A stretch of 37,628 nucleotides of DNA, taken from positions 1-37,628 of the IMG/VR virus record IMGVR_UViG_3300009104_000052. The stretch is one strand, 5' to 3'. Below, piece after piece: positions 1,450 to 35,227 of the stretch. Source of the stretch: a virus. How positions within the stretch are numbered: the first letter of the stretch is position 1; every line of letters starts with the position of its first letter. The notes below the pieces were generated by a model. It was not told the DNA's origin, searched no databases, and worked only from the letters and a program-made list of their open reading frames with translations. Made by a program: the position numbers and the translations under genes.

Positions 1450-1457
1450 GAGAGAAT

Positions 1458-1658
1458 ATGTTACATAAGAGAGCGTTGAATAGAACAGATTGGATGGTTA
1501 GAAGACATAGGGAAGAAGTAGAGTTAGGTGTTACTACTTCTCTTACTGCTGAACAATACCAAGACTTATTAACAACTAGACAAAGTTGGCGTGAGTCAGT
1601 ATCAGGAAATGCAAGTCCAGTTAGTTTGATACAAGAATTAAAAGATGAAATAGGATAA
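1458..1658 (+). CDS. Small tail assembly chaperone-like protein
   Basis: 66 residues, no membrane segment. The pattern RTDWMVRRHREEVELG...TAEQYQDLLTTRQSWRE resembles the short tail-fibre assembly chaperone (APC) type, in which an N-terminal 'R..L..tDW' is followed by an 'R..lR' helix. It starts 9 bp after the tail-fibre stop, with an AGGAGAGAAT ribosome site overlapping the end of that gene. Such chaperones usually sit directly behind the fibre they fold. Family assignment is by motif only. Confidence 0.5.
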   Translation: MLHKRALNRTDWMVRRHREEVELGVTTSLTAEQYQDLLTTRQSWRESVSGNASPVSLIQELKDEIG

Positions 1659-1660
1659 AC

Positions 1661-2095
1661 ATGTACACAATACAAAGAATATTAGGAGAGAATTTACTTC
1701 TCAATTATCAATTTATTAAAACAGAACTAGAAAAAGCACTAGAATACTCCGATGGTGATCGAAATGCACCACAAATTATACTAGATAGTATCTCAAACCC
1801 CCAAATTTACCAAATATGGGCAGTTTTTAAGGATGGTAATAGGGTGGCACTAGGTTCGACAAGAGTCGTCCAATACGCAGGATTTAGAGCTCTGCACATA
1901 ATTACACTGGCTGGTGAAACTGATGGTGATCTATCAGAATGGGCAGCTATTTTTGAAGAAGAAATGAAAGAACAACCTATAGACATGTTAGAGTTAACAG
2001 GTCGTAAAGGATTTGTTAAACAACTAGAGAAAGCAGGTTGGACTGAAAGGTATACAACTATGCGAAAATTAATCAAGGAGACACCGAATGGCTAA
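1661..2095 (+). CDS. gp13-like / GNAT-fold-like virion-operon protein
   Basis: 144 residues with an acetyltransferase-like pattern: a strand 'IWAVFKDGNRVALGSTRVV', a central 'ALHIITLAGETDGDLSEW', then 'IDMLELTGRKGFVKQLEKAG' and a basic C-terminus. Proteins of this size and type precede the internal virion proteins in T7-like phages (T7 gp13 position). The acetyl-CoA loop is not clear, so enzymatic activity is doubtful. It starts 3 bp after the previous gene and overlaps the next by 8 bp. Confidence 0.45.
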   Translation: MYTIQRILGENLLLNYQFIKTELEKALEYSDGDRNAPQIILDSISNPQIYQIWAVFKDGNRVALGSTRVVQYAGFRALHIITLAGETDGDLSEWAAIFEEEMKEQPIDMLELTGRKGFVKQLEKAGWTERYTTMRKLIKETPNG

Positions 2096-2687
2096 TAGTA
2101 CAATGACATCCATAACGCAATACGCATCGCCTTATGCAGCTCAAGCCAAGAAGATATTAGAGGATGCTCAAAACCTGTATGATGCAGGAAGTTTGGGACA
2201 AGTTGCTGGATTTACTGATGCTCAGACACAAGGTCAAGCAGCTGGTTTAGCAGCAGGTCAAGCACAGATAGGTCTTGAAGGTCAGCTTGCAGGTATGGCA
2301 GGTCAAACTGATCTCTCAGGAATGAGACAAGCAGCACAACAAGAAGCCTTGCAAGCTCTGGGACTTAATTCTGCAGCAGCTGGACGAATGGGAGGACTTG
2401 GTGGTTCTCGACAATTTGTTAATCAGCAATCTATAGCAAATGATTTAGCTGGTAAGTTTGGACAAATAGATTTACAAAGACAGCAAATGGATTTTGCCAA
2501 TACTCAAGCAGCACTTCAGGCTCAAGGAACGGGTGCAGGACAAATGGCACAGATTGGTCAGGCACAACAACAGCAAGCACAAAATGTTCTTGATGCTCCT
2601 TATACAGGGCTGACACAACTTGGAGAGATGTTCTCTAATATCGCAGCCAAGCAAACACGAACTGAGTCAGACCAAGGAGGTAAGTAA
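2088..2687 (+). CDS. Internal virion protein, gp14-like (Ala/Gln-rich)
   Basis: 199 residues, close to T7 gp14 (196). It is very rich in Ala, Gln and Gly (repeated AAGQAQIGLEGQLAG-like stretches) and predicted mostly helical. It has the same place as gp14, ahead of the two large core proteins. Role inferred: a small ejection protein that leaves the head with the DNA and helps build the envelope channel. Ribosome site AAGGAGACACCGAATG; its stop overlaps the next ATG by 1 bp (TAATG). Confidence 0.5.
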   Translation: MANSTMTSITQYASPYAAQAKKILEDAQNLYDAGSLGQVAGFTDAQTQGQAAGLAAGQAQIGLEGQLAGMAGQTDLSGMRQAAQQEALQALGLNSAAAGRMGGLGGSRQFVNQQSIANDLAGKFGQIDLQRQQMDFANTQAALQAQGTGAGQMAQIGQAQQQQAQNVLDAPYTGLTQLGEMFSNIAAKQTRTESDQGGK

Positions 2688-3298
2688 TGTTAGGACCTTT
2701 AGGAAATTATGGAATTGCCAAATCTCTTGTACAGACACCGGGATGGAAAGCTTTAGAAGCTGAAGAAAACGAAATGCTTCCGGGAGGAGGAGGCGGTGGT
2801 GGTTTTGGTATGAGATTTGGAGGTGGTTCACAACCTTATAACGATATGGAACGAACTATTCTTGCTCATAATTACCCCGGTGGTTATAAAGTTGCTACTG
2901 ACCAATATGCTGCTAAATATTCAGATCAATTAAATGAATGGGCTTTAGCAGAATTGAAATATAAGAAACCTCAAGGTCCAGCAGGTGGTGGAACGTGGGA
3001 AGAAGAATTTGCTAGACAAGCTGCTGCAAGAGAAAATTATTATGAAACAGGTGATTTGTGGGGAGTGCCGAAAGCTGTACAGAAAAAAATAACAGCAAAA
3101 CCAAGTGGCTTAGATAAATTAAAAAAGACTGCAAAACCTACTTATAAAGTAAGAGATGATTATAGTACTGGCTGGGTTAAACCAGTAACTAAGAAAGCTA
3201 AAACAGTTTGGGGGGTTAGTCCGGGAGCAGGTAATTCTCGTAGAATAACAGGACCATCTCAATCATCAGTATATAGAAATATCGGGAGGTTTAGATAA
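2687..3298 (+). CDS. Gly-rich virion-operon protein of unknown function
   Basis: 203 residues. Residues about 31-48 are a Gly tract (PGGGGGGGFGMRFGGGSQP) and the C-terminal half is Lys-rich and basic (KKITAKPSGLDKLKKTAKP). No domain recognised. It overlaps both neighbours by 1 bp, so it belongs to the virion operon and is probably a minor structural or DNA-contacting protein. That role is inference from place and charge. Confidence 0.6.
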   Translation: MLGPLGNYGIAKSLVQTPGWKALEAEENEMLPGGGGGGGFGMRFGGGSQPYNDMERTILAHNYPGGYKVATDQYAAKYSDQLNEWALAELKYKKPQGPAGGGTWEEEFARQAAARENYYETGDLWGVPKAVQKKITAKPSGLDKLKKTAKPTYKVRDDYSTGWVKPVTKKAKTVWGVSPGAGNSRRITGPSQSSVYRNIGRFR

Positions 3299-3807
3299 TG
3301 GCAAATGTTTACGCACCGTTATATAATAGCGTACAAGCAAGAGGCAGACTATCTCCTTTAGGAGCACCGGGTGCTGTAAGACCTTATGAAAAGAAAAAAG
3401 CTCTTGGAGACAAGATGGCTGGAGCTTTAGGTGATATGATAGACCAAGCAGGCGAAAGCAAGAAGGCTATGAAGAAAGAACAAATAGCTCAGCTTGAAAT
3501 GGAAATGAAAGAGATGAACAAGCTTTTTGAAGGTGGTGAATTTAGAACCTTTGAAGGAGCTGATCCAATGCAACAAGCAGAGAAATGGTTTTGGCATGAA
3601 GACTATCGAGGAGATAGAACCTTTACTCCAGACATAAGTTTTATAGATAGATTCTTTGCAATTAAAGGACAGCTTGGTCAACTTAAAGGGCAGACACAAT
3701 ACAAAGATAGAGAACCATCTGCCTTTGATTTTAAATTTACAGAAACTGCTAAGCCTTCAAGCAATGGTATCTTTGGTAATGCTTTTAGACAAATAATGGG
3801 AATATAG
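3298..3807 (+). CDS. Virion-operon protein with a coiled coil, unknown
   Basis: 169 residues. About residues 28-80 form a charged helix with coiled-coil character (ESKKAMKKEQIAQLEMEMKE). The rest is hydrophilic, with a conserved-looking aromatic patch (EKWFWHEDYRGDRTF). No membrane segment or known domain. It sits tightly between two virion-operon genes; likely a minor virion or scaffold component. Confidence 0.6.
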   Translation: MANVYAPLYNSVQARGRLSPLGAPGAVRPYEKKKALGDKMAGALGDMIDQAGESKKAMKKEQIAQLEMEMKEMNKLFEGGEFRTFEGADPMQQAEKWFWHEDYRGDRTFTPDISFIDRFFAIKGQLGQLKGQTQYKDREPSAFDFKFTETAKPSSNGIFGNAFRQIMGI

Positions 3808-3816
3808 GAGACAGGA

Positions 3817-5946
3817 ATGGCAGAACTAACATGGGATGAGAAAATGGCTTTATCTAGAGCCAGACATGCCGAAAACATGTATCAGAATAGAGCTACGCAT
3901 TACCAAGGTAGAAAAGTTGCAGACCCTGCTCCTAGTGGCGGACCAAGAAGGCAATCTAATAAACCAAAAGATGATTCATCTAATAAAGCCAAACGAGTAA
4001 TATCACAAGTCTTTGATTTGCATGGTATAACAGAAACCGAAATAAATACAGATCCAAATGGTATAGTAACAAAGAAAGAAATAAAAACACCATCATCTGT
4101 TTTTGATGATTATCGTAATGAAGAAGGTGAACCTTTTTACTCTGAAGCTCGTGAATCTGCTCGTTCTTCTATTGCTACTCCACCAGCTGCAGCCTTTAAT
4201 CCAGAAGATCCACCAGCTGAAGCCTTTGGAGATGGTCCAAATGATTTATCTCCACATTTTTCTTTTATAGAAGGAAGATATTTAACAAATGCTGAATTTT
4301 ATGGTACTCCAGCTGACCACTGGGAGTCTACTCCTATTAATAAAGAAGTTGTTTACAATGAGGAAACACAAGAATTTGAAGTACAGTCAGAGCCTGACCC
4401 AGTTGTAAATGATACTGGTTTAGTATGGCTATCTGATAATGATATATATCTTGCTCAGGACAAGATAAGACAGGATTATGACGAAAGAGATTTAATGGAT
4501 ATCAGGAATCACCATCCAGATTTATTTGTAGAAATGATGAACGAAGGTGGTTTTGAAAGCAGACCAGACCCTCATCCACATGCAGGAGAAGGCTTCATAG
4601 AAAATGAAGAAGGAGAGATAGTTCCTGATACAAGTGAACTGAAAAAAAATCTTGATGACATTCCTTGGGCAGAAAATAAAGGTCTTGTATTAGATTCTAT
4701 TAAGACGCTTCAAGAAGAAGACCCTTCTGGTGAAGCAATTAAAACTATCAATAATTTTGCTGAATGGGCTGATGAGGTTTCTGATGAGGAGTCTCAGGCA
4801 GCAGCCGAAGCATATCTAGAAGATCTAGCAAACCAACCTACAGTTAATGATAGGTTTAAAAAAGCTATGGCAATTGCTTTTGCTGCAATGTTATTTGGTG
4901 ATGACTTTAGTACAGCTATGAACACAGGATTCGGTGTAGTTGCTGATGATTACGATGAAGAGAAATTAGAAGCACAAACTATTGCTGAAGCTGAGGCTGA
5001 GCTAGCCAAGAAAATAGCTGAAGAAGAAAGAGCTTGGATACGTGGTAATTTAAATTCAGAGAGAGACTTCAGAGAAGCAGCTGCTCTTCAATTAATGAAA
5101 GATAAAGTTGCTGCAGAGAAAGCTGCTAAAGAAGACAATCAGAAAAGGTTGAATAAGAATGTTGAACTTGGTGACAAAGCTTTGAAAGACTTATTTGAAA
5201 TGAATAAGGGACATGAGAATTTTCATAATCTGTCAAACAAAAGTGTACAAACTCAAATGGCAGGATTGCGAGAGAAGATTGAGGATTTTGCTCCTGAAGG
5301 ATTTGTATTAGACTTTAGAGATGCTACACAAATGCATGCTATTGGTACTGTTTTGAAGAAGTTTGTATCAGAGCAATTGCATTTTCAAGATGGAACAGCT
5401 CCAGATCTTGCTACATATGCAGAAGAAATATTTACTAAGATTGAGTTGGAACAATATACAAATATAAATCCAGATTTAATTGCACCTAGCAGAGCTTATT
5501 TACAAAATGAAAGAAAAGTTAATATGGATAAGCTTGACAAATCTGAATGGCATGGCTTGCAATATGGAACAAAAGAAACAGTTAGGCTTGGTGAATTAAT
5601 ACAACAAATTGCAGGAATTAGTGATGGAAAAACCTCTATAGGAGAGCAGACAGCAACTCATCTTCTTTATAAAGACTACTTAATGTTTAAAGCTAATAGA
5701 CCAAAGAGCTTTGAAGAGATGGCTGAGATTGCAGACAATAAAGGAGTCGGTCACTTTACACAATTTGTAAATGTTGTTCTAGGAGATATGTTAAAAGATG
5801 GACATATTGATGGATATGGCATGAACTTTGATCCTGCTTATCAGGCTATAAAAAGAAGTGACTATACATCTGATGAAGACTTTAGGAAAGCACAAGACAA
5901 CTATATAATAAAATATATTAAAGACCACCCACTTGACTTTCAATAA
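3817..5946 (+). CDS. Large internal virion protein, gp15-like
   Basis: 709 residues, close to T7 gp15 (747), and placed directly before the largest ejection protein as gp15 is before gp16. The N-terminal third is acidic and Pro-rich. About residues 345-375 form a hydrophobic segment (AMAIAFAAMLFGDD) and 385-455 a long Ala/Glu/Lys coiled coil. The C-terminal third is mixed alpha. Homology to gp15 is not visible in sequence; the call rests on length and order. Ribosome site TAGGAGACAGGAATG. Confidence 0.5.
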   Translation: MAELTWDEKMALSRARHAENMYQNRATHYQGRKVADPAPSGGPRRQSNKPKDDSSNKAKRVISQVFDLHGITETEINTDPNGIVTKKEIKTPSSVFDDYRNEEGEPFYSEARESARSSIATPPAAAFNPEDPPAEAFGDGPNDLSPHFSFIEGRYLTNAEFYGTPADHWESTPINKEVVYNEETQEFEVQSEPDPVVNDTGLVWLSDNDIYLAQDKIRQDYDERDLMDIRNHHPDLFVEMMNEGGFESRPDPHPHAGEGFIENEEGEIVPDTSELKKNLDDIPWAENKGLVLDSIKTLQEEDPSGEAIKTINNFAEWADEVSDEESQAAAEAYLEDLANQPTVNDRFKKAMAIAFAAMLFGDDFSTAMNTGFGVVADDYDEEKLEAQTIAEAEAELAKKIAEEERAWIRGNLNSERDFREAAALQLMKDKVAAEKAAKEDNQKRLNKNVELGDKALKDLFEMNKGHENFHNLSNKSVQTQMAGLREKIEDFAPEGFVLDFRDATQMHAIGTVLKKFVSEQLHFQDGTAPDLATYAEEIFTKIELEQYTNINPDLIAPSRAYLQNERKVNMDKLDKSEWHGLQYGTKETVRLGELIQQIAGISDGKTSIGEQTATHLLYKDYLMFKANRPKSFEEMAEIADNKGVGHFTQFVNVVLGDMLKDGHIDGYGMNFDPAYQAIKRSDYTSDEDFRKAQDNYIIKYIKDHPLDFQ

Positions 5947-5961
5947 TTAGAAGAGGGCTTT

Positions 5962-8900
5962 ATGGCTACAGATAGCGATATTAAAAAAAGAATGCAAAGT
6001 ATACTTTCTTTGCTACCAGAAATTCGCACTATAGATGCAGATACAGTTGCAGATGCAGAAGGCTCTATTCGTTTTGAAGGATTGAATGCTCCTGAAGTAC
6101 AACACATTACTCCTGATGGATTAAAGAGAGCTGGTTGGGGCGGTGAGTTTTATAAAGACCTTTATGAACAACTATGGACTGAAGGTGGATTCACCACTCC
6201 TTATCGTTCTGGTGAGAAAGGTTATTGGGATCGTGACTTAGGCGGTATGGAAAACGAACAAGGAAGAAGCTTTGCTAACAAGGCTGTCTATGAGGGCGTT
6301 GCCACACCTACGAATGCTGAACAACAGGAGCTTTATGATATAGGTGTTTTTCAAAGAGCATTTAAAAATGATGTTTCTGGAGATGTAGATAATGACATAT
6401 GGGCTCAAGCCAGAGATAAGATTATTGATTACAAAAAGAAAACATTTGTTGGTATTAAAGAAAAAGCGATAGATGAAAAACAACTAAGAGAATATAAAGA
6501 TTTTTATGGTGAATCTTTTAGTCCTTTCTTTGGTCATGATGTCAGGTTCAGAGATTATAGTAGAACTATAGACAATGAAGCACGAGCAGACTATGGTCCG
6601 GGCTGGTCGCAAGGCTGGCAGATGATGAAAGAGAATATGAACAATGCTATTTCATGGGCTGGAGATGTAGGAGGAAGCGAAAAGATTTTTGATGTTGGTC
6701 AGGTAAGAGCCGCTGAATCTAGATATAGATTAGCTGACATGCCTCTGATTAAAAATGATTTTACAAAAGTAAAAAACCTTGGCGATCTTGTTGACTGGGC
6801 ACAAACTTCGGCTGGTGTTTCTATGCCATGGATACTTGGAATGGTAAGTTCAGCTATCGCTGGCACTCTTCTATTGGCATCAACTCCAATTACTGGACCT
6901 ATAGGAGCCGTCTTTGGGACAGCTTTAGTTTGGCAAGTCCCAATGTTCTGGCAGTATGCTGGAGAAGCATACGGAAATATGGAAGGTGGCATGGACCAAA
7001 GAAACGCTGGTCTTGCTTTTGCTGGCGGAGTAGGAATGACTGCACTTGATAGACTTGGACTAAAGGGACTAATGTCTGTTGGACAAACATTAAAGAAAGA
7101 TGCTTTAGAAGAGATGGCTCAACTATATGCTAAGAAAAATAATGTAACTATAGAAGTTGCTAGAAAAAAAGTGACAGATACAACTGGCAATATAACTATG
7201 GGGGCTATAGCAGACTTATCTCAAATTGCTTCACTGCAAATGAGTAAAGCAACTCTTGCAAAACAAACAGGCAAAGGATTTTTATTAGGTGCTGGTATAG
7301 AAAGTGTAACTGAGATTGGACAAGAAAGTATTGGTTACTTAGCTGGTATTTATGGTACAGATGAAGACATCAGACCTCGATATAATCATGATGAATACAT
7401 GAGGCTTATGGCTAATGCTGCAGCAGGTGGTTTTATGCTTGGTGGTGCAATTAGAGGAACATCAACTGTTACTAGTGAAGTAGGATCGTTTAAAAGTTTA
7501 CAAAGAAAATTAAGAAATGATGCACAGATAGCTGATAACTGGATGGCTGGAAATGTAGAAGACAACTTTGATGAAATGGTTGGCAATACTGACCCTATAA
7601 GAGTAGATACTAGACAGCAACGTAAGTTGAATGAAGTCAATACTGAGATGGATGAAGAGTATGAGAAGGGAGACATTGCAGATAAATCTAAATGGAGAGG
7701 TGGACTTAAATCTATTTATCAAACAATAAAAGAGTTTCCTAAAAGATTTACACAGTCTGGTCCTAAGTATTGGGAAAATAAAGTACTCAATAGTAAACTA
7801 ATTTCTGAGAAAGGCAAGAGAGCTTTTCTAATTGCACAAACTTTAGTCGGTGGTGGAAAGCTTTCTGCTATGGAAGGCGTAGATATATTTGAGCAGAAAA
7901 GAATATTACAAGCTGGTTTAATGGCAGAAACAAGAATGTTTCGAGATAGACTTTATCACCTGCTTGGTGTTGGAGTACAAGTATCAGACCGTTTATATAC
8001 TGGAAGGACAAGACAAGAGGCAAATGAATTTTTTGTTGAGTATCTAAATGAAAGAGCTTCTGGTAAAAGTGTTGATGAAGTAAGTGCTAAGTTTAAACCT
8101 TATGCTAAAGAGCTTGAGAACCTAAGACAAGATATAGGTGGTCAAGATACAGATAGTAATGGTATAACTGATAGGCTTTATGATGCAGTTTCAGGTCTTC
8201 TTCAAGGGACTGGTCCAAAGAAACTACCACAATGGTTTCAAAATAGTAGACGCTTAAAGAAAGACGAAGTTCTTAATAATAAAGATGAGTTTTTGCAAAC
8301 TCTAAGAGACAATGGTTGGAGTGAGCAAGAAGCAAAAGATTTTTATGACATGATTGAGAATGGTCCAGCAGGATATGATGTAAGTCAAGTTGCACAGTTA
8401 GGTTTTATGAACTTTCCATCAAGGTCTTTGAAAACAACTAAAGGAATTCTTGAAAAAACTTTTGGTAGTGATTCAAAGTTCTTAGAGAATGACCCGTTCC
8501 AAAGACTAATGGAAAATATTCAAGAGCAAGTTAACTATGCAGTTGATAGAAGATATCTTGGTAAAAATGGAACCAAGTTTAATCAATTATTAAAAATAAT
8601 TAAAGATGAAATGGGTGATGATTGGGATCCACGCATTGCTTCTCAGTTTAGAGATTATGTTGCAGCTAGTCGTGGTGACTATCGTAGATTAAGTAGCAAA
8701 AGAATGGAAAGAATGATAGGTCATATTACATTCTTTAATACTTTTGGTCATCTTGATTTGTCAGCTTTAGCTTCAGCACCAGAGGCAGCAATTGTTCTGC
8801 TTGGAGCTACCCAAGACAAAAAGATAATGCCTCTTATTGAGAAAGGTGTGACTGAAATGTCTTATAAACTTAGGATGGAGGCTGCAAACAACTGGTCATA

Positions 8901-10044
8901 TATTAATCCTAAGTCAGGTGTAACTCGTGAACAGTATCTTAGAAATCTCACAGATTTCTATAGGTATGGTTATGACACTGGTGCTCACGGTGCAATTGGT
9001 CAGGTAGGTATTGATGAAGCTGTATATAAAACATCTAAGATTAAAGAAGCAGTAATGAAAGCATTCTTTACTGTTAATCTTTTGAAAGTTTATACAGATG
9101 CTACAAGAGTAGCTCGTCTTGCTCTAGCCAATGATGCAATCTTTGGTGACTTAGAAATAATTGCAATGTTTCCTCCCGGTCATGATAGTAGAAGCACTGG
9201 TTTATTCGTAGATGCTTTTGAAAGAATGAGAGAGCTTAACATTGATCCTGATACAGCTGCTTTTGATTATTCTGTTATGGTTAAATTAGCTAAAGACCAT
9301 CTTGGACGAGGTGCAAGCACTGAAGCTATATACGAAGAGATGATTAAAAGAAATCCTAAGTTCATGAGAACAATGGACATTGCTAGAATGAGCTGGGTAG
9401 ATAATGCTATTGCTCATCCAACAGCAATGAACCGACCTGTTTGGTATTCTAATCCAGCGTATAGAGTCTTTACTCAATACAATGGTTTCATGTCCGTCTT
9501 TACTGCACATCTTCTTCCTAAAATCTGGAGAAGAATTAAAGGTGCAGATCCGTCTGCTAAATATAATGCAGTTGCAGTTGCAGTTTCAATGTTAGCATTA
9601 GGATTCTTAAGCCAAATGCTTAAAGATGAATGGAGGTATGATGGTGCTCCGGGTTGGATAACTCCTAAAGGATATATCCAACGTGGTATTACTTCATCAG
9701 GACTTATTGGTACACCTGAAAAACTTTTAGCAGCTGTCAGTCCCTTATATGATATGAGTAAGAGATGGAATGAAAGCAGAATGGATAACATTCTTAAGAG
9801 AACAGGTCATGGTATTGAAGATTTACTTGGTCCAACTTGGGCTCATGGTGAACAACTATCTAAAATCTTTTTCAATTATCTATCAGGTAATGAAGAGATG
9901 GCAAAGCTTTATTTATCAAAAGAGATTCCTTTTTGGGGTAAGTTAAGAGCTGCCAAAGAATATAATCTTGGATCGAATAGAAAAGGAATTGAATTAAAAG
10001 ATGCATTGAGAAACTCAATGCCGTCTATTACATTTCCATTATAG
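5962..10044 (+). CDS. DNA ejection protein, gp16-like, with SNase-like N-terminus
   Basis: 1360 residues; T7 gp16 has 1318. The N-terminus does not look like the gp16 transglycosylase. Instead residues 24-112 match the staphylococcal-nuclease pattern: IDADTV (D27), SIRFEGLNAPE (R37, N42, E45), and a later QGRSFANKAVYEG (R102). Residues about 275-330 contain two hydrophobic helices (PWILGMVSSAIAGTLLLAS; GAVFGTALVWQVPMFW), and another lies near 1210. The C-terminal region has the 'NPAYRVFTQYNGFMSVF' segment that I associate with large phage ejection proteins. Inferred role: released from the head during infection to form the DNA path across the envelope, with a possible nuclease or DNA-binding head. 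Confidence 0.65.
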   Translation: MATDSDIKKRMQSILSLLPEIRTIDADTVADAEGSIRFEGLNAPEVQHITPDGLKRAGWGGEFYKDLYEQLWTEGGFTTPYRSGEKGYWDRDLGGMENEQGRSFANKAVYEGVATPTNAEQQELYDIGVFQRAFKNDVSGDVDNDIWAQARDKIIDYKKKTFVGIKEKAIDEKQLREYKDFYGESFSPFFGHDVRFRDYSRTIDNEARADYGPGWSQGWQMMKENMNNAISWAGDVGGSEKIFDVGQVRAAESRYRLADMPLIKNDFTKVKNLGDLVDWAQTSAGVSMPWILGMVSSAIAGTLLLASTPITGPIGAVFGTALVWQVPMFWQYAGEAYGNMEGGMDQRNAGLAFAGGVGMTALDRLGLKGLMSVGQTLKKDALEEMAQLYAKKNNVTIEVARKKVTDTTGNITMGAIADLSQIASLQMSKATLAKQTGKGFLLGAGIESVTEIGQESIGYLAGIYGTDEDIRPRYNHDEYMRLMANAAAGGFMLGGAIRGTSTVTSEVGSFKSLQRKLRNDAQIADNWMAGNVEDNFDEMVGNTDPIRVDTRQQRKLNEVNTEMDEEYEKGDIADKSKWRGGLKSIYQTIKEFPKRFTQSGPKYWENKVLNSKLISEKGKRAFLIAQTLVGGGKLSAMEGVDIFEQKRILQAGLMAETRMFRDRLYHLLGVGVQVSDRLYTGRTRQEANEFFVEYLNERASGKSVDEVSAKFKPYAKELENLRQDIGGQDTDSNGITDRLYDAVSGLLQGTGPKKLPQWFQNSRRLKKDEVLNNKDEFLQTLRDNGWSEQEAKDFYDMIENGPAGYDVSQVAQLGFMNFPSRSLKTTKGILEKTFGSDSKFLENDPFQRLMENIQEQVNYAVDRRYLGKNGTKFNQLLKIIKDEMGDDWDPRIASQFRDYVAASRGDYRRLSSKRMERMIGHITFFNTFGHLDLSALASAPEAAIVLLGATQDKKIMPLIEKGVTEMSYKLRMEAANNWSYINPKSGVTREQYLRNLTDFYRYGYDTGAHGAIGQVGIDEAVYKTSKIKEAVMKAFFTVNLLKVYTDATRVARLALANDAIFGDLEIIAMFPPGHDSRSTGLFVDAFERMRELNIDPDTAAFDYSVMVKLAKDHLGRGASTEAIYEEMIKRNPKFMRTMDIARMSWVDNAIAHPTAMNRPVWYSNPAYRVFTQYNGFMSVFTAHLLPKIWRRIKGADPSAKYNAVAVAVSMLALGFLSQMLKDEWRYDGAPGWITPKGYIQRGITSSGLIGTPEKLLAAVSPLYDMSKRWNESRMDNILKRTGHGIEDLLGPTWAHGEQLSKIFFNYLSGNEEMAKLYLSKEIPFWGKLRAAKEYNLGSNRKGIELKDALRNSMPSITFPL

Positions 10045-10057
10045 AAAGGAGTTATAA

Positions 10058-13000
10058 ATGGCTATAGGACTTAGAGGGGCAGTACAAGGAAGACAAGGCT
10101 CCAAGTTAAATCAAAATCATCCAGCAACAAAACGTATGATGACTTTGGTTAACTCTCTTAATGTAGGAGACATGGAAGAGCAAGCAGTAAATGAAGCCTT
10201 TAAAGAGGGTGAATCCATTTGGACTGATGTTGTCAATGAAAATGTATCACAGGAATCTCTGCCAGCAAGAGCATCTATTGGACAGGCTCAGGTTAATTAT
10301 CCTCCAGAGATGATAGAAACTTTGTTTCCTAATGAAGCAGCTGCTTATGGTTTAGAAACTCCTCCAGCTCTTCCACCAGAAGTGGAAGATGAAATGGCAT
10401 TAGATTTTGCTAGACTTAAAGGGGTAACTCTTTTAGATATGCTAAACAATCCAGCTCTTAGAGAGGAATATGCTAGATATCTTGGTCAAAGAACTAGGAC
10501 AATGGATAATGATAGATACTATTTATATGATGACCAAGGATATAGTGATGATAAAGAAGGTGTTAAATATAGTACAGAACGTGCACCTACTTTATATAGA
10601 ACGCCTACAAGATTAGAGCAGCTAGCTAGAGAAACGTATCCAGATTATACAAGTGCTCCTAAACTTGCTGAAGCTGCAAGAGGTGTAGAAGAAAATGTAA
10701 AGTATCGTCTTAAACAATATGGAGCAACAGAGGAAGAAGCTAATAGAATCTGGGAAGAAAACAAGAACTTCAATACTGAAGAAAATATTATTGCTGGTGC
10801 TTTAGGAAGTCTTGCTAATACAGCTACGACACTTGCTCATCAAGACGATCATCCTAGATTTATAGATGGATTAGAACAGATGGCAGAAAAGGTTTTCTAT
10901 TCTTTACGACAAACATTCTTAGGCAACGAACCTAGAATGAATCCACAAGCTATGGAAAGATTTGTAGATAGGGTTATAGAAAACAACCCTGATATTAATA
11001 GAATAAATGCAAGAGAATTTCTCTTCAAATATATGGCTAACTATGGAAGCATAGCGGAAATGAATCCGAATGCTGCAAGAGCTTATTCTGATTTCATGTT
11101 GTTATCAGTAATGGACTATGCAAAAAGAAAGTTAGTTCGTTATGAACAAAATAAAGAAGATGATGATGCTGGTGAATTAACTGCAGAACAAAGAGCCGAG
11201 ACAACGGAGCAAGCTGTTGCTAGAAATGAGCAAAAGCTTATGATGAATGTTGCTGATGACCGTGCTATAGGTGAAGTAATCCTAACTAATATGAGATGGG
11301 AAGGAGCTTCTGCAGAAGACCAAGCAATAGCAGGAGCCCTTGCAAAAGCTATAGTTGGAGATGCATTTAAATTTGAAGACGCATCCAAAGCAGATCCTGA
11401 TTTTAAATACATGGCTGATGAAAAATTATTTGAAGTAACAACTTCACCTAAACAATTACCAGATGGTACTTATGCAACACACCCAACAACAGGAAGAGTT
11501 CTAGAATATACTGGTGTAACTTTAACAGAAAGAGGTTTGGAAATTGCAAACAGACTTGAGCCTTTGATGGCTGCTGTAATGAAAAACTCAAGGAGAACAG
11601 TAAGATATAATAGAACGAATAGAAATAATGCTGTTGTTAGAAAATTAAAGAACAAACAAACTGCTGAAGGTAAAGATGTAGATATAGGCGATACTAGTGA
11701 GATGGATGAGATGCTTACTGTTGCTAGAAATACACCAGTAACAATCAATCCTCTTATGGCTGAGTTTATTAAAGTAATTGCAGCAGAGCTAAAGAAGTTT
11801 AGTACAGAGTTTGGAAGAAGATTAGACTCACAGGAAGCTCTTACAGCTTATCAACAAACTTTAATGAGTTTGCTTGATGGTCCTGCCTTTCAAAATATGA
11901 AAGGAGATGGTGAAGGTAATGTAGGTATATATGGTTTTCGTCCCGGTAAGGTTTATTCTAGAAATAGACAAGGAGAGATAGAGCTTGATGAAGCTGGAGA
12001 AAGAGTAAGTTTTCAAGACTTTAGTGATGGTATTAAAGACAATAGTTTTAATGATGCTGTTCAATTTATAACAGATAATGCAGGTGTAGAGTTTTTCTAT
12101 GATTATTTCTTTGGATTAAATACTAGACTTAATGTTTCTCAAACCGTTGGAAATTATCAAGGTAGTAAGTTAATCAGGTCTACGATAAGTTCATTTGAAC
12201 CTCATGCTTATAAGTTAAATGACCCTATAGAAGTTATATCTTTGAAGGCTGGAATCATGAAACGATTTAGCTTTGATAAAATGGATTTACTTACAGCTGC
12301 TGATATGTTTGATGCTCAAGTTGCTGAATGGTCCCAAGCAGATGCAAGACGAATGATAGAAATTGCTGCAGAACATGAAGGCTGGGGATCTATTGCTTCA
12401 ATGCTAGAAGCAGTTGCATTTAATACAGAATTACAAAACCCTAATAGCAAGGGCGTTTATACAACTGGTTTCTACACAGAGATTGATGGTTTAACTAATG
12501 GTATGGCTCACTCTTCAGTTCAAGCTGGAGATTTAAAGACTGGGTGGGCTGCCAATTTATTTGATCCTAAGACGCATGCACATTGGGCTAAAAATTATGA
12601 TGAGCTTGAAAGACTTGTAAGAGAAGGTGAGTTTGATGGTTTAGATCCGGGACAAAGAGCTGAACTTGCTATTTATTTAGATGCTTATAATCAAGTCAAT
12701 GATCGTATGAAGAATATGATGAGACGCTTATGGGGCAAGGGTGACCTTAAACCTGTAGATATATATGATGTGGGATTGCCGGGATTAATAGAAACTTCTG
12801 CTAGTGAAGCAGCTAAGACTATAATGAATAGAGCTCATGGAGCTTCTGGTGATGGCAAGGGATTCGGAAGTGTCAAGTTTAAAGATGCTTTGAAAATCTT
12901 AAGAGACTTTGACTCTCCGCTTGGAAGGAAGTTTATTAAAAAACCTGTGATGATTTTTGGATATGGTGCAGGTGCAGCAAGGATTGGTGAAGCTGTTCGT

Positions 13001-14146
13001 AATTTTGTTGATGAATTATTTATGACTAAAGAAGGCATAGAAATGCGTCAAGCAATGGTAGATAATGGAATTGATATTGATAAACATTTTATTGATCCAT
13101 TAGGAATAATTGCAGCTGAAGCTGTAAACCAACAGTTCGCAGCGATTAAAGACTTTGCTTCCACTCTTTCTGCAACAGCAACTGAGGCTGCTAGCCAAGG
13201 ATTTGCTTTACGAATACCTACATTGGCTGGATACTTTATTAACCTAGGTGGAATAGAATATGAGGTAGACAGAGCTAAAGGTAGAACCGTTAACTTTCAA
13301 TACTTTCCGGGAAGAGCTGCTGCTGCAGCAAACAGAAGGAAAGGAAAGGGTGGTAAGAAAGGCATGGCTAGAACAACTTCTGGTGTAATGAAAGCAACTT
13401 TCAATCCTTTCTTTGGTCCTCAAGGTTTCTTAAAAGCTGCAACACAAATAACTGTAATGCTTAATCATGCGAATGATAATATAAATATGAACAGGCATTT
13501 GGTTAATGTCCATAAAAGGAAACTTACCGATAAAGGTATAACAAGTTATGAAGCTTGGCTTGCCCAATTAGAAAATCCAAACAATGCTATAGGCAAACGT
13601 AATGGAAACACAGCCCTACATATATTTGATGGCTTACTTGTCCAACCATTTGAAGCAGAGATGCATGCGAATGAACTTAATAAAGTATTTTTGCAAATGA
13701 TGAAGGCACAAAAAGGTCATACAAGTTTTGTTGAAGATGCTCTTACCTTTGAGTTAAGTAACTCTGGTGAGAGAATTGCTGAAAGAATTCCTAGAAGGCT
13801 TGGTAAAAAGAAATGGAGTCAGTATAGTAAGATAAAACAATCAGATATGATATGGAAAAGACTTCTTACTGATGAAGGCATGGCATTACATAAGTCTAGA
13901 CAGCCAGCTGTTAGCACCTGGCATCCAGATTTTGATGAGTTTGCATTTGATTGGGATAATCCAGTGGCTGGTGAGATTAGAAATTCATTACGTCACTTTG
14001 ATACTGAAAGACAGAAGATGGCTAACACTGTTAAACATGTCCATCAATTCTTTTGGGGCACTCGTCCTCTCAGCCAGCAGATATCTAATGCTGATAAGAA
14101 GCGTGTCAATAAACATGTCCAACCTAAAAAGAAGATAGCAGCGTAA
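10058..14146 (+). CDS. Single-subunit RNA polymerase in the virion operon (N4 vRNAP-type)
   Basis: 1362 residues, last gene of the virion operon. All family motifs are in order: a DxxGR-like stretch FFGLNTRLN (R690) followed by NYQGSKLIR (T7 has NPQGNDMTK); motif A TEIDGLTNGMAHSS (D810); motif B GRKFIKKPVMIFGYGAG (R957, K961, Y969), with the same R-x3-K-x7-Y spacing as T7 R627/K631/Y639; motif C LHIFDGLLVQP (D1191). Motif C has Phe where T7 has His811. The A-to-C distance (381 residues) is nearer N4 virion RNAP (D559 to D951 in its mini form) than T7 (275). About 650 residues precede the catalytic part and match nothing I know. Place in the late operon beside ejection proteins suggests it is packaged and injected to transcribe early genes, as gp50 is in N4. 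Packaging is inferred. Ribosome site AAAGGAGTTATAAATG. Confidence 0.85.
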   Translation: MAIGLRGAVQGRQGSKLNQNHPATKRMMTLVNSLNVGDMEEQAVNEAFKEGESIWTDVVNENVSQESLPARASIGQAQVNYPPEMIETLFPNEAAAYGLETPPALPPEVEDEMALDFARLKGVTLLDMLNNPALREEYARYLGQRTRTMDNDRYYLYDDQGYSDDKEGVKYSTERAPTLYRTPTRLEQLARETYPDYTSAPKLAEAARGVEENVKYRLKQYGATEEEANRIWEENKNFNTEENIIAGALGSLANTATTLAHQDDHPRFIDGLEQMAEKVFYSLRQTFLGNEPRMNPQAMERFVDRVIENNPDINRINAREFLFKYMANYGSIAEMNPNAARAYSDFMLLSVMDYAKRKLVRYEQNKEDDDAGELTAEQRAETTEQAVARNEQKLMMNVADDRAIGEVILTNMRWEGASAEDQAIAGALAKAIVGDAFKFEDASKADPDFKYMADEKLFEVTTSPKQLPDGTYATHPTTGRVLEYTGVTLTERGLEIANRLEPLMAAVMKNSRRTVRYNRTNRNNAVVRKLKNKQTAEGKDVDIGDTSEMDEMLTVARNTPVTINPLMAEFIKVIAAELKKFSTEFGRRLDSQEALTAYQQTLMSLLDGPAFQNMKGDGEGNVGIYGFRPGKVYSRNRQGEIELDEAGERVSFQDFSDGIKDNSFNDAVQFITDNAGVEFFYDYFFGLNTRLNVSQTVGNYQGSKLIRSTISSFEPHAYKLNDPIEVISLKAGIMKRFSFDKMDLLTAADMFDAQVAEWSQADARRMIEIAAEHEGWGSIASMLEAVAFNTELQNPNSKGVYTTGFYTEIDGLTNGMAHSSVQAGDLKTGWAANLFDPKTHAHWAKNYDELERLVREGEFDGLDPGQRAELAIYLDAYNQVNDRMKNMMRRLWGKGDLKPVDIYDVGLPGLIETSASEAAKTIMNRAHGASGDGKGFGSVKFKDALKILRDFDSPLGRKFIKKPVMIFGYGAGAARIGEAVRNFVDELFMTKEGIEMRQAMVDNGIDIDKHFIDPLGIIAAEAVNQQFAAIKDFASTLSATATEAASQGFALRIPTLAGYFINLGGIEYEVDRAKGRTVNFQYFPGRAAAAANRRKGKGGKKGMARTTSGVMKATFNPFFGPQGFLKAATQITVMLNHANDNINMNRHLVNVHKRKLTDKGITSYEAWLAQLENPNNAIGKRNGNTALHIFDGLLVQPFEAEMHANELNKVFLQMMKAQKGHTSFVEDALTFELSNSGERIAERIPRRLGKKKWSQYSKIKQSDMIWKRLLTDEGMALHKSRQPAVSTWHPDFDEFAFDWDNPVAGEIRNSLRHFDTERQKMANTVKHVHQFFWGTRPLSQQISNADKKRVNKHVQPKKKIAA

Positions 14147-14148
14147 AC

Positions 14149-14195
14149 AAAAAAACCCCAACAGAATTCTTTATGAAATCTGTTGGGGTTTTTTT
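14149..14195. terminator. Two-way intrinsic terminator between convergent operons
   Basis: A 17-bp perfect stem (7 A, then ccccaacaga; mirror at 14179-14195) with a 13-nt loop and T-runs in both directions. It ends the rightward virion operon and the leftward replication operon, and overlaps the stop codon of the 14194-14484 gene. Confidence 0.95.
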
Positions 14196-21864: not shown

Positions 21865-22374
21865 TTAGAATGGTACGTTTTCGTCTGTATCTTCTAATTC
21901 AGCAGTTGGCTTTTCAAGATAAGTAAACTCATCTCCTCCACCAGTGCCTTCATATTCTACAAGTTCCATGACTTGTACTCCAACTAATGTTGCAGTGATT
22001 CCAGTCTTGCCTGCGTACTCCCATGGTCTTTCCATGTATTGTACATTGCAGACAGAACCATTACCTATATTTGTTTCACCCATATTATCACCGTACTTAT
22101 CTTTTACGAATGGAGCGGATATTTCCATCTTTTCCATAGCACCTGTGATAGGGTTCTTCTTATTGAAGTGTGTATTACGTTTAATCTTAACAAAAGGTGT
22201 GCCATCTTCGGGATCGAAGCGTTCTTTCTGTGCGAACCCTTTGGCTACCCATTCTTTAGATTGTTCTGGTGTCACATGGCAGTCTATTGTCCACTCTGTG
22301 TCTTCAGAAGCATACTTTTGAGCAGGATTGTTGCCAACTCTAGCCCATTTTACTTTTACGTTGTTTAGAATCAT
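21865..22374 (-). CDS. T7 gp2.5-like ssDNA-binding protein
   Basis: 169 residues. The beta-rich OB-type core (VKWARVGNNPAQKYAS..., FVKIKRNTHFNKKN, GITATLVGVQVMEL) ends in an acidic tail with terminal Phe (ELEDTDENVPF), the arrangement of T7 gp2.5, where the tail contacts replication partners. Coats single-stranded DNA and may anneal strands with the exonuclease. It heads the leftward replication operon and has a long, hairpin-rich leader with terminators (22405-22605). The phage also has a bacterial-type SSB at 34106-34603. Confidence 0.8.
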   Translation of the reverse strand: MILNNVKVKWARVGNNPAQKYASEDTEWTIDCHVTPEQSKEWVAKGFAQKERFDPEDGTPFVKIKRNTHFNKKNPITGAMEKMEISAPFVKDKYGDNMGETNIGNGSVCNVQYMERPWEYAGKTGITATLVGVQVMELVEYEGTGGGDEFTYLEKPTAELEDTDENVPF

Positions 22375-22474: not shown

Positions 22475-22493
22475 AGATGCCTGAAAGGCATCT
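22475..22493 (-). promoter_or_regulatory. Perfect 7-bp hairpin, CC/GG-closed 5-nt loop
   Basis: AGATGCC-UUUCA-GGCAUCU in the leftward RNA. Its left arm can also pair with the GGCATCTTT at the foot of the preceding terminator, so the two are mutually exclusive. Similar hairpins with loops UUUCC and CUUCU precede the genes at 34603 and 35131. Confidence 0.6.
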
Positions 22494-22509
22494 TTAGTTC
22501 TATTGTTCT

Positions 22510-22566
22510 AAAAAAAAGATGCCATACGTTTCTCATAGGAGGTGTGGTAGTATGAGAAAGTATGGC
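22510..22566 (-). terminator. Terminator with a loop antisense to the RNA polymerase start site
   Basis: In leftward RNA the arms GCCAUACUUUCUCAU and AUGAGAAACGUAUGGC pair over 15 bp (one bulge), followed by AUC and eight U: a strong intrinsic terminator for the RNA polymerase operon. The 15-nt loop reads ACUACCACACCUCCU. With the loop-closing bases it is complementary to the ribosome site and start codon of the RNA polymerase gene (positions 25938-25956), in blocks of 9 and 10 nt separated by a 3-nt bulge. It therefore presents an anti-Shine-Dalgarno CCUCCU in a loop. Confidence 0.85.
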
Positions 22567-22574
22567 GTTATGTT

Positions 22575-22605
22575 TAAGCTGAGTTACTACCACAGTGGCA
22601 GCTTA
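22575..22605 (-). promoter_or_regulatory. Hairpin mimicking the RNA polymerase start site
   Basis: 7-bp stem UAAGCUG/CAGCUUA. Its loop contains UGUGGUAGUA, sharing 9 nt (GUGGUAGUA) with the RNA polymerase translation start. It is complementary over 10 nt to the loop of the next hairpin (22543-22552). The two could kiss, or form an alternative stem that breaks the terminator. Confidence 0.7.
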
Positions 22606-22648
22606 TTATTTTTATGAAAAGTTTTTTTCTTTTCCTTTAAGGGGCTAG

Positions 22649-23495: not shown

Positions 23496-25940
23496 CTAAC
23501 AAAAGAAAAAGTCTGAGTCGTATATATCTTCCAGTATTAACTTACCTACTGTCGGTATATCTTTATCAAACATTTGGTCATTGTATATTATTTCTTCACG
23601 CATAATCGCAAATATATCTTTAGCATACATCTTTATAAATTCACTTTTAGTTGTGTATATAAGCTCTTCAACATTACAAGCGTGAACGCTGAAGCTGTCA
23701 TGAATCGCACCAAAACTCGCATACCCCAACTTATTAATAACCAAAGACATGTGGCTTGCATCATAAGAATGCACCCAGTTAGCACCAATTGCTGATAAAT
23801 GTTCTGCTAATGCAGGCTTATCAGTTACATCTAAATATACATGTGCTATTTGTTTTTTTTGAATGGTTCCTTTGTAAACCTTTTTTCGTGCAACCCATTT
23901 TTGTGTGAGTACAGGGAAGCCACTTGGTGTTTCCCATGATATGTCTTTAAGTTGCATAGATTTCAATCTATGTTCAACCAGTGCTTGTAAATATTTCTTA
24001 ATTTCTACAGGTCCATGACATATAGAGTCATAAGCTTCTACTAAATCTTTGCCTAGTGATCTTGAGTCTGACCTTGTTATGTTATAGGCAGATGTAATAC
24101 CAGCATCATAAGAATCTTGATATATTATTTCGCCTATTTTTCTAGCACCTGCATCATATGCTCTAGTCATGGAACCACGTTTGCTGATACCTTTTCTTAT
24201 AAGTTTCATAGGTATGTGTTTTAGTTTGTCGCCTATATCTGTATCTTTATTTAGTTCTAGTATTTTTTTACCCATTACTAAATAAAAGTCTTTTGGCATT
24301 TCCATAGGTGTAAGTCCTACTAGTTTTCCAGCTCTTTCATCTAAAGACATTGCTGCTAAATGTTGCGTACCGTTGTTAACTCCGTCAATTGAGATTGGCA
24401 TTGATGAATAATATGGTTCACCTGATAATGCACTACCAACAATTCCACCGATTTCAAAACAGAGGGATAAGAATACCCATGGTTTTTCTGCTTGTTGCCA
24501 ATAATTTATATATCCAATAGGATTTTCAGCAATGTCTAATAATTTTTCTATATGTTCTACTGTCCAGTTGTGTTTGTCTTCTGCACTCATTTTATCGACT
24601 GATATATCAACCAAACCGTCTGCTTTTAATGGTTTAGCATAATCTAGAGTTATCCATTCTTGATGTTTAAGTTCGTCTATTTTATATGTTTGATTAAATG
24701 ATGTTGCAGCATGTATAAATGTGTATTCTGCACCTTTTTGGTCTACTTCTTGTTCTTCATGGAATAAAAAATGTGCTCTAGCTAAATCGTTTGATTGATA
24801 ACTAAAGTATGGATCACGATTATATATTCTTCCCCTGTAATCTAAATACATTGATTGATAAAAACTATATCCAAGCCATCCGGGTTCTGTTTCATTTCCA
24901 CTAATTGTTTCTAATATTGCCTTGTTTCTTGTTGCTTGGGACTGTTTTCTTAAGCAATATTGTTTATCTGACCATCTTCTGTTCTCTATATTGTATTTTT
25001 CTTTAATTTTTTCTAGTTTTTTTCGTGTTTCTTCTATTTTTTGTTCGTTTTTCAGCTTTTCTAGCCTATCATTTAGGTTTTCTATCTCTTTTTCAAGCTT
25101 TGGTACACTGCTTGAGTTGCCTAGGTGGGGTTCAAATATGTCATTATCTCTATAAAGTTTAATATTTTTTAAATGTTTATTTATATTTTCACGTTTAATG
25201 TCAATTGTATTAAATTGTATATTTTCATTATCAGCATTTTTTAATTCAATATTTGTATCTATAAGAGTATCTTTTAGTTGGTTGCTTATTCTTGCAACGT
25301 CTGGATTTATTTTCCATCTAACATTTTCTAATTTATGTATTGATTGCATAAACATTGCATCTGCATATGTTTTATCAGTTTTAACATTAGATTTTATTAG
25401 GTTTTCTTTTACTCCTTGGGTTGTACGGTGACCATTTTTCCATTCTTTGTATTTATGTAGAGATATCCCAGTTCTTTCTTTTGGGTTTGTTGAGATTTTT
25501 ATAAAGTTTTCACCCATTTCTAGTTTGTAAGGATTGTAATTTATTTTTCTCTTGTTTCCTTGTGCAAATACCTCTTCTATTCTAAAAAACGGCTCACGGA
25601 GAAGCACAAGGTATCTATTTTCAATTAAAATGTCTAAGATGAAGTCCCCCATCATGATTGACTTAGCTACCGTAGAATTGAATCCTCGTGCGTTTAAGAC
25701 ATTTAGTGCAATTGTGCCTATATATGTACTTGTGTTAGTTAATTTCAGCGATCCTTCGCCCATTTTAAATTTTTGTATCAAAAAGTTGAATGTCATATTC
25801 AATATTTTTATAGTGCGAAAGTCATTGTATACACATTGTGCATCCCTAAAGATGATTGCAGCGTTTGAGTTGTTACTGTGTCTAGATGCTATTTTATTTT
25901 CTAAAATGTCAGCTAGTTGATTGATTTTGTTAGTTTCCAT
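23496..25940 (-). CDS. T7-type single-subunit RNA polymerase
   Basis: 814 residues (T7: 883). Motifs: YLDYRGRIYN (D367-R371, DxxGR), motif A ISIDGVNNGTQH (D519), motif B KGISKRGSMTRAYDAG (K587, Y595, K-x7-Y as in T7) and motif C GAIHDSFSVH (H747, D748). The C-terminus ends DFFFC, close to the aromatic 'foot' of T7 RNAP. A charged coiled coil at about 275-325 (KLEKEIENLNDRLEKLKNEQ) is an insertion relative to T7. It transcribes the middle and late phage genes from its own promoters. Translation start: AUAGGAGUGGUAGUAUG, which is the target of the antisense loop at 22510-22566. Upstream are a twin promoter-like repeat and a hairpin. Confidence 0.96.
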   Translation of the reverse strand: METNKINQLADILENKIASRHSNNSNAAIIFRDAQCVYNDFRTIKILNMTFNFLIQKFKMGEGSLKLTNTSTYIGTIALNVLNARGFNSTVAKSIMMGDFILDILIENRYLVLLREPFFRIEEVFAQGNKRKINYNPYKLEMGENFIKISTNPKERTGISLHKYKEWKNGHRTTQGVKENLIKSNVKTDKTYADAMFMQSIHKLENVRWKINPDVARISNQLKDTLIDTNIELKNADNENIQFNTIDIKRENINKHLKNIKLYRDNDIFEPHLGNSSSVPKLEKEIENLNDRLEKLKNEQKIEETRKKLEKIKEKYNIENRRWSDKQYCLRKQSQATRNKAILETISGNETEPGWLGYSFYQSMYLDYRGRIYNRDPYFSYQSNDLARAHFLFHEEQEVDQKGAEYTFIHAATSFNQTYKIDELKHQEWITLDYAKPLKADGLVDISVDKMSAEDKHNWTVEHIEKLLDIAENPIGYINYWQQAEKPWVFLSLCFEIGGIVGSALSGEPYYSSMPISIDGVNNGTQHLAAMSLDERAGKLVGLTPMEMPKDFYLVMGKKILELNKDTDIGDKLKHIPMKLIRKGISKRGSMTRAYDAGARKIGEIIYQDSYDAGITSAYNITRSDSRSLGKDLVEAYDSICHGPVEIKKYLQALVEHRLKSMQLKDISWETPSGFPVLTQKWVARKKVYKGTIQKKQIAHVYLDVTDKPALAEHLSAIGANWVHSYDASHMSLVINKLGYASFGAIHDSFSVHACNVEELIYTTKSEFIKMYAKDIFAIMREEIIYNDQMFDKDIPTVGKLILEDIYDSDFFFC

Positions 25941-34105: not shown

Positions 34106-34603
34106 TTAAAACGGCTCGTCATCTTCCAAATCGTTATCGGATTTAGTTGATTCCTTGTCATCACGTGATATTTCTTTTCCACCGCTAGAGTCACCTCCAC
34201 GTTGAATTTCAATACCACTAGATGAACCACTGGGTGCAAGGACAGAGATACTGCCTTTACCGTTTGTCAAGACTTCAGTGATACTTTCAGTACCATTTTC
34301 GCCTTTAAACTCACGTGTCTGTAAACGTCCAGTAACGTGTACAGGCACACCGCTTAATAGATTTTCGTGAAGATAATCTAGTTGAGCAGGATACTTGCCT
34401 TTGGTGTCAGCGTTGAATGATTGAACTACGTGAAACCATTCAGCAGTTTCTCGCTTATCACCAGAGGAAGTGTATGTTGTGTGGTTAGCACAAACGTTGA
34501 AACGTAAGACTCTATAGTTAGAACCTGCTTTAGATTTAAACTCTTTCATCTTAGCGTCTTTCCCTAGTTGACCTAGGATTGTAACAGAATTATAGTTTAA
34601 CAT
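34106..34603 (-). CDS. ssb: Bacterial-type single-stranded DNA-binding protein
   Basis: 165 residues from the ATG at 34603 (AGGAGTATAGTT before it; the longer frame lacks a site). N-terminal OB fold: VTILGQLGKDAKMKEF, YRVLRFNVCANH, AEWFHVVQSF, VPVHVTGRLQTREF. A Gly/Ser/Asp-rich linker ends in the acidic tip DLEDDEPF, matching the bacterial SSB C-terminal tip that recruits host replication proteins. The phage therefore carries two ssDNA-binding proteins. In N4, an SSB activates virion-polymerase promoters; a parallel here is inference. Confidence 0.92.
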   Translation of the reverse strand: MLNYNSVTILGQLGKDAKMKEFKSKAGSNYRVLRFNVCANHTTYTSSGDKRETAEWFHVVQSFNADTKGKYPAQLDYLHENLLSGVPVHVTGRLQTREFKGENGTESITEVLTNGKGSISVLAPSGSSSGIEIQRGGDSSGGKEISRDDKESTKSDNDLEDDEPF

Positions 34604-34638
34604 AACTATACTCCTACGAAGTCTTATTAAAATACTCA

Positions 34639-34695
34639 CTGATAGCGACTCCAAGAACTATCAGGAGATAACTTCTGAGTTGCCGGAAAGGCAAC
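34639..34695 (-). promoter_or_regulatory. Two hairpins in the ssb leader
   Basis: ctgatag/ctatcag (34639-34664, 12-nt loop) and gttgcc-ggaaa-ggcaac (34679-34695). The first is flanked by ATACTCA, the conserved strand of the pseudoknot family, but its UGCUCA partner is missing. Confidence 0.55.
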
Positions 34696-34745: not shown

Positions 34746-35131
34746 TACTGCTCAATTGCCATTACTAACTTGGACTTATGAGCAGTTTTTATGTCATCTT
34801 TTCTAAGATGAATATCAAGTACGCCTTTGGCTACTTGAGTTGTACGTATAAAATGTGGACGTTTAGACGTTCCTGTCCAATATTTACGTGTACAACTAAT
34901 TGGAACTGTATTACTTGCTAGAAAGTCACCAGCAAGATATCCAGCACCCATTTTCTTGGCATCATCAGCAGTAAGAACTTTACAGTTCCATTTCTTAGAT
35001 GCATTCAAAGTTTCCTTTAAAGCACGATTTGCTTTAGAGTATTTCTTTGGTGAAAATGTTTGGCTTGATTCCATTCCACACACAAACTTGCTTAGAATGG
35101 AAATCGCTAACTTCTTATTCTCGATGTTCAT
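34745..35131 (-). CDS. Basic hypothetical protein, first leftward gene
   Basis: 128 residues, Lys/Arg-rich (FSPKKYSKANRALKETLNASKKW; RKYWTGTSKRPHFIRTTQ), no known domain or membrane segment. Nearest leftward gene to the divergent control region, so probably among the first expressed; such genes often act on host proteins or DNA. Ribosome site AAGGAGTTCACTATG lies just behind a 7-bp, 3-nt-loop hairpin (35150-35166). Confidence 0.7.
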   Translation of the reverse strand: MNIENKKLAISILSKFVCGMESSQTFSPKKYSKANRALKETLNASKKWNCKVLTADDAKKMGAGYLAGDFLASNTVPISCTRKYWTGTSKRPHFIRTTQVAKGVLDIHLRKDDIKTAHKSKLVMAIEQ

Positions 35132-35170: not shown

Positions 35171-35227
35171 ATTGTGGAACGAGATTGTGCCACAATTAAT
35201 ATCCTCTGCGTTTCCAGAAGGGAAACG
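35171..35227 (-). promoter_or_regulatory. Two perfect hairpins upstream of the first leftward gene
   Basis: attgtgg/ccacaat (35171-35196, 12-nt loop) and cgtttcc-agaag-ggaaacg (35209-35227). The second has the same CC/GG-closed 5-nt loop plan as hairpins at 22475 and 34679. Confidence 0.6.

Follow-up and report, generated by a model that had tools for sequence, protein, structure and literature searches.

The virion RNA polymerase (vRNAP) of bacteriophage N4 initiates transcription at DNA hairpins, reading the loop and its closing bases directly, and needs the host single-strand DNA-binding protein (SSB); it is followed by RNAPII, a heterodimer of the T7 family (PMC4496689). The Alteromonas schitovirus R22Y is reported to encode a vRNAP of 2,083 residues together with a second RNA polymerase (PMC11705849), and Thermus phage P23-45 uses a virion RNA polymerase for its pre-early genes and a non-virion one afterwards (PMC10770324). 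The injected, hairpin-reading polymerase of N4 has hitherto been treated as a giant protein and as the hallmark of one phage family. Here, we describe the gene at 10058..14146 (+) of the IMG/VR virus record IMGVR_UViG_3300009104_000052, a linear, incomplete fragment of 37,628 bases, the whole of which is referred to as the window. The gene product belongs to the N4 virion type of single-subunit RNA polymerases, and the same window encodes an 814-residue T7-type RNA polymerase. We consider it likely, with a probability of roughly 0.75, that this N4-type polymerase, which is compact, has a gene of its own and is very probably carried in the virion, initiates the transcription of early genes at hairpin promoters and that the T7-type enzyme takes over afterwards.

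The identity of the 1362-residue protein was evaluated using profile comparisons. Single-protein searches retrieved nothing from phage records or IMG/VR and no sequence match from the PDB, and aligning the single sequence with N4 alone by hhalign gave no usable information; the signal came with profiles. A search with the shared motif region yielded nine close relatives in IMG/VR and a family profile yielded more, giving a final alignment of 13 members with 28–54% identity, every one a metagenomic contig; the genome contig collection held no relatives of the compact polymerase. The protein matched PHROG 414 ('RNA polymerase') with an E value of 2.4e-10, and its close relatives reached 7.9e-21. 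In addition, the single protein matched a profile that was built for this analysis from 17 vRNAP domains of Schitoviridae in phage records, with an E value of 3.7e-10. Comparison of the 13-member family with the same profile gave an hhalign probability of 99.3 and an E value of 1.5e-20 over 544 columns, with the four catalytic motifs in register, vs. an E value of 1.3e-7 for T7-type RNA polymerases. The N4-type identity that an earlier note had read from the DNA letters is therefore borne out far beyond chance.

The catalytic residues lie where that note had placed them. The R690 block (TR...NxQxxKxxR; 12095..12178, +), the equivalent of N4 TxxGR, is in register with ..TRVGRMQ..NPQSAKLVR of N4, and D810 lies in motif A (YTEIDGLTNG; 12473..12502, +). 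Motif alignment with N4 further identified motif B, RKFIKKPVMIFGYGAG (12926..12973, +), with R957, K961 and Y969, which sit within RKFIKKPVMIFGYG, and motif C, LHIFDG (13616..13633, +; LKIFDG in N4), with D1191. All six residues align with N4 and are unchanged in 13 of 13 homologues. Moreover, ExDGxxxG, the defining motif of N4 vRNAPs (PMC10654107), is present as E808-I-D810-G811-L-T-N-G815 and is equally unchanged in the 13 sequences. Invariance of catalytic residues at 28–54% identity indicates purifying selection for activity.

The fold was assessed using an AlphaFold2 model of residues 330–1362 (predicted template modelling score [pTM] 0.71, mean predicted local distance difference test score 72). 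The model shows the right-hand fold of single-subunit polymerases, for which the earlier note had named structure prediction as a check, and its structure matches were the mitochondrial, T7 and N4 RNA polymerases (Z 24.3, 23.9 and 22.8, respectively). Among the N4 mini-vRNAP structures, Z was 22.8 for 3c46, 22.4 for 3c2p (root mean square deviation 3.6 Å over 529 residues) and 19.5 for 2po4. The fold search alone does not decide between N4 and T7, whereas the sequence profiles do separate them.

N4 gp50 with its mini-vRNAP and the Schitoviridae orthologues share with this protein the catalytic motifs, the fold, the position as last gene of the late operon and template-strand GNA-loop hairpins before early genes. 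In contrast to the gp50 type, which spans ~2,800–3,800 residues with N- and C-terminal ejection and autoinhibitory domains, the protein is free-standing, belongs to another phage group and, as had been claimed, is compact: it is encoded by a single open reading frame of 1362 codons, and neither the giant length nor the extra terminal domains were found. Its relatives measure about 1,145–1,672 residues. R22Y resembles the window in having two RNA polymerases and a smaller vRNAP; however, it is a schitovirus by its other genes, and its vRNAP is still larger than the one described here. A large survey of N4-like viruses dropped all hits below 2500 residues (PMC10654107), so the compact family would have been filtered out.

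Other sizes were also observed. The vRNAP encoded by contig L093 (1-5397), 1,799 residues or more in length, combines KKPVMVFGYG and a metalloprotease-like HELIH string with a C-terminal part resembling that of N4, and it possibly stands between compact and giant vRNAPs. A 2,374-residue protein with VIEVDGLTNG (L131:70-7191) represents another putative vRNAP size class. In G019 (L092), the vRNAP gene at 5945-10146 is broken over three frames, through either sequencing errors or a real disruption.

The 814-residue partner (23496..25940, −) is a genuine single-chain T7-type RNA polymerase, as proposed, with a Pfam RNA_pol match of E 9e-59 and the motifs SIDGVNNGTQH, KRGSMTRAY and IHDSF. Both genes occur together in at least 10 further viral contigs (G011, G013, G014, G018, G019, G021, G023, G024, G025 and G002) and also in the truncated G012, so that the pairing is conserved. 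The relatives have a convergent layout, and a homologue of the 5962-10044 gene adjoins the N4-type gene wherever the contig reaches. The suggestion in the earlier note that no described phage has such a pairing was too strong, since N4 vRNAP with RNAPII (PMC4496689) and R22Y (PMC11705849) precede it. The pairing principle is thus not wholly new; the novelty lies in the compact size, in a T7-type partner made as a single chain and in the phage group. What appears to be undescribed is a free-standing vRNAP of ~1,150–1,400 residues together with a single-chain T7-type RNA polymerase, and no description of a compact free-standing N4-type enzyme with such a partner was found in the open-access library that was searched.

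Near-identical pairs of T7-like promoters with a CCYTATAGR core were observed in L139 (G018), L140 (G023) and L143/L144 (G025). In G018, TCTCGACCATCACCCTATAGGAA is present twice, with one copy directly after the T7-type polymerase gene, and one copy in G023 is likewise placed. A search for T7-like promoters by their TATAGG core identified these pairs in G018, G023 and G025 and none in the window.

Gene order agrees with the proposal that the polymerase belongs to a virion operon. Positions 1-14146 form a rightward operon of virion genes, of which the polymerase gene is the terminal one, as gp50 closes the late operon of N4. Directly 5' of it, the gene at 5962..10044 (+) encodes a large internal or ejection-type virion protein of 1360 residues, which matches PHROG 6958 (virion structural, E 5.9e-15). 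A leftward operon converges on the rightward one and encodes endonuclease VII, ribonucleotide reductase, resolvase, exonuclease, primase, helicase, a gp2.5-like SSB and the T7-type RNA polymerase, preceded by many small early genes. The Schitoviridae hallmark set comprises seven genes, namely DNA polymerase, major capsid protein, portal, tail, large and small terminase subunits (TerL and TerS) and vRNAP; apart from the last, none was identified among the proteins of the window, which is a fragment.

Residues 392–511 of the 5962-10044 protein gave a weak match to residues 330–465 of the N-terminal domain of N4 vRNAP (hhalign probability 53%, E 1.4e-4), possibly reflecting a common membrane or ejection segment. 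A split gp50, made up of this protein and the polymerase, is not claimed, given a probability of just 53% for the N4 N-terminal domain and no match for the C-terminal domain.

Several other phages offer partial parallels. P23-45 shows the same order of virion and then non-virion polymerase; however, its RNA polymerase is of the cellular type, is fused to the tape measure protein and belongs to an unrelated family. In StenR_269, DES1 and Zobellviridae, a vRNAP has been proposed for a large protein (PMC10747016) at a comparable position, on the weak grounds of size, absence of cysteine and helicity rather than motifs. The cultured Roseobacter phage CRP-7 (MK613349) shares the convergent layout, a homologous neighbour (gp34) and a T7-type RNA polymerase (gp30, 37% identical in the best segment), whereas gp33, at the position of the polymerase, is annotated as hypothetical and has no BLAST similarity to the 1362-residue protein. 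As a candidate orthologue, gp33 gave no significant profile match, a low-confidence model (pTM 0.36) and motif-like strings only. This protein (L004:17859-21566) and the same-position clusters in L009-L049 are unannotated, measure 1,210–1,300 residues and carry motif-like strings such as VGDAGSAS, KDYARGLVVAGLYG and IHDAL. By these strings, the gp33-type proteins may be very divergent vRNAPs.

Three candidate vRNAP promoter hairpins were found on the minus strand of the window. H1, CGTTTCC[CTTCT]GGAAACG (35209..35227), precedes the first of the leftward early genes (ATG at 35131) by ~80 nt. H2, GTTGCC[TTTCC]GGCAAC (34679..34695), lies upstream of an SSB-family gene (34106..34654, −; PHROG 44, E 2.7e-13), and H3, AGATGCC[TTTCA]GGCATCT (22475..22493), is separated by 100 nt from the gene for a gp2.5-like SSB downstream of it (21865..22374, −; PHROG 112, E 6.1e-10). 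On the coding strand, their stems differ, their loop motif is common and is followed by a shared CAGA motif, and all face early or middle genes. The pattern CCYTTCNGGNANCNCAGA occurs three times in the window, against a chance expectation of 0.00, and never in shuffles. The bidirectional terminator aside, the H2/H3 hairpin copies are the sole element among repeated 20-mers in the non-coding DNA of the window, and most relatives carry a hairpin at the site orthologous to H3.

Hairpin sets were counted in the window and its relatives, with 300 shuffles each and with N4 and T7 as controls, and every relative whose early region is covered had a set of its own; a scan limited to triloops detected just one of the three copies in the window. 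Same-loop hairpins numbered three in the window, three in G011, four in G018 and four in G023, and none of 300 shuffles reached the count in each case. The loops were TGC (×3) in G011, TAA(A/C) (×4) in G018 and (A)TAC (×4) in G023, with unrelated stems within each set. From N4, the procedure recovered hairpins at 90-102, 557-573 and 4546-4562 with coding-strand loops TTC, TCC and TCC, while T7 gave no significant set. Going by the published design and the P2 sequence, we take the recovered N4 hairpins to be the known early promoters. The coding-strand loop TNC (GNA on the template) is common to N4, the window (TTC), G011 (TGC) and G023 (TAC). Recurrent, non-random hairpins of N4-promoter design are therefore present in this group, and those of the window look like candidate promoters of the compact polymerase. 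They support the proposed role in early transcription with evidence that the earlier note did not have. Moreover, two of the three precede ssDNA-binding-protein genes, a suggestive placement given that N4 vRNAP requires the host SSB.

Upstream of the gp2.5-like SSB gene, at 22500-22620 (−), we also observed a pair of RNA hairpins in tandem whose loops are complementary to each other (..GTGGTAGT.. and ACTACCAC(ACCTCC)); a T run follows the second hairpin. The arrangement is kept in L133, L136, L101, L145, L141, L103, L100 and L132, and in L132 both loops co-vary (GTGGTAGGC / GCCTACCAC). The tandem hairpins look like a kissing-loop element with a terminal terminator; an Rfam search with this RNA gave no family match.

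Taken together, these features suggest the following order of events. The polymerase would be a late product of the structural operon, most likely packaged together with the ejection protein whose gene lies directly upstream, and would enter the cell along with the DNA. Once inside the new host, it would recognise short DNA hairpins (6–8 bp stem, phage-specific loop), situated before early genes and ssDNA-binding-protein genes, and make the first transcripts. These would lead to the 814-residue T7-type RNA polymerase, which would then transcribe the middle and late genes.

Several points weigh against this order of events. The hairpins were identified post hoc, after the data had been seen, although the shuffle and phage controls behaved as expected. 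The loop in G018 departs from the GNA type, G014 and G019 have a CAAG loop in the hairpin that lies upstream of SSB, and contigs with truncated early regions show one hairpin only. Furthermore, a hairpin may also act as an RNA element, isolates gave no sequence match to a family whose members are metagenomic contigs only, and we infer packaging from gene position alone.

The view that the hairpins serve in RNA processing or termination and not as vRNAP promoters, with the early genes transcribed by the host RNA polymerase, appears rather unlikely. Conserved terminator-like RNA does lie directly upstream of H3, and sigma-70-like sites are present, though the promoter scan showed no enrichment (98 sites vs. 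87 ± 9 expected); however, no T run follows H1–H3 on the coding strand, the layout is like that of N4 promoters, and the combination of the same loop with a freely changing stem in each phage fits loop recognition. We also regard as improbable an active but unpackaged N4-type polymerase that the infected cell would produce as a second enzyme for late transcription or replication priming. An intact N4-type catalytic core would suit it, as would the fact that gene order is the basis for packaging, yet in all relatives examined the gene closes the structural operon, adjoining the ejection-type protein, and the hairpin candidates precede early genes, whose needs at first entry a polymerase made late could not meet. 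It is very improbable that the protein is a vRNAP-derived structural or ejection protein that has lost catalysis: the CRP-7 group, whose gene at this position has neither BLAST similarity nor a confident fold, indicates that the locus can diverge widely, but the catalytic residues are invariant across the 13 sequences. That the protein is a second polymerase of the T7 type (Autographiviridae), extended at its N terminus, is scarcely credible, since, despite the common superfamily and the high rank of T7 and mitochondrial enzymes in the structure search, the profile score prefers N4 vRNAP by 13 orders of magnitude and EIDGLTNG, KKPVM and IFDG are N4 forms, whereas the 814-residue enzyme has the T7 forms SIDGVNNGTQH and IHDSF.

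The compact N4-type polymerase that hands over to a T7-type partner would bridge the N4-type and T7-type transcription strategies. A different, overlooked (marine) phage group seems to follow the two-polymerase programme that has been considered characteristic of N4-like phages, and a marine podovirus-like lineage combining a minimal separate N4-type vRNAP, phage-specific hairpin loops and handover to a single-chain T7-type RNA polymerase is, in our judgement, fairly probable. If so, the hairpin-reading polymerase is a module independent of giant gp50 and of Schitoviridae, able to exist where the giant ejection domains are absent. Such small polymerases, diversified in nature and each matched by a hairpin set, would be useful for working out how loops are read, and the natural loop-swapped variants (TTC, TGC, TAC and TAA) would reveal the recognition code.

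Finally, between the two convergent operons, an inverted repeat with AAAAACCCCAACAGA arms was observed at 14151-14193, which is probably a bidirectional terminator.

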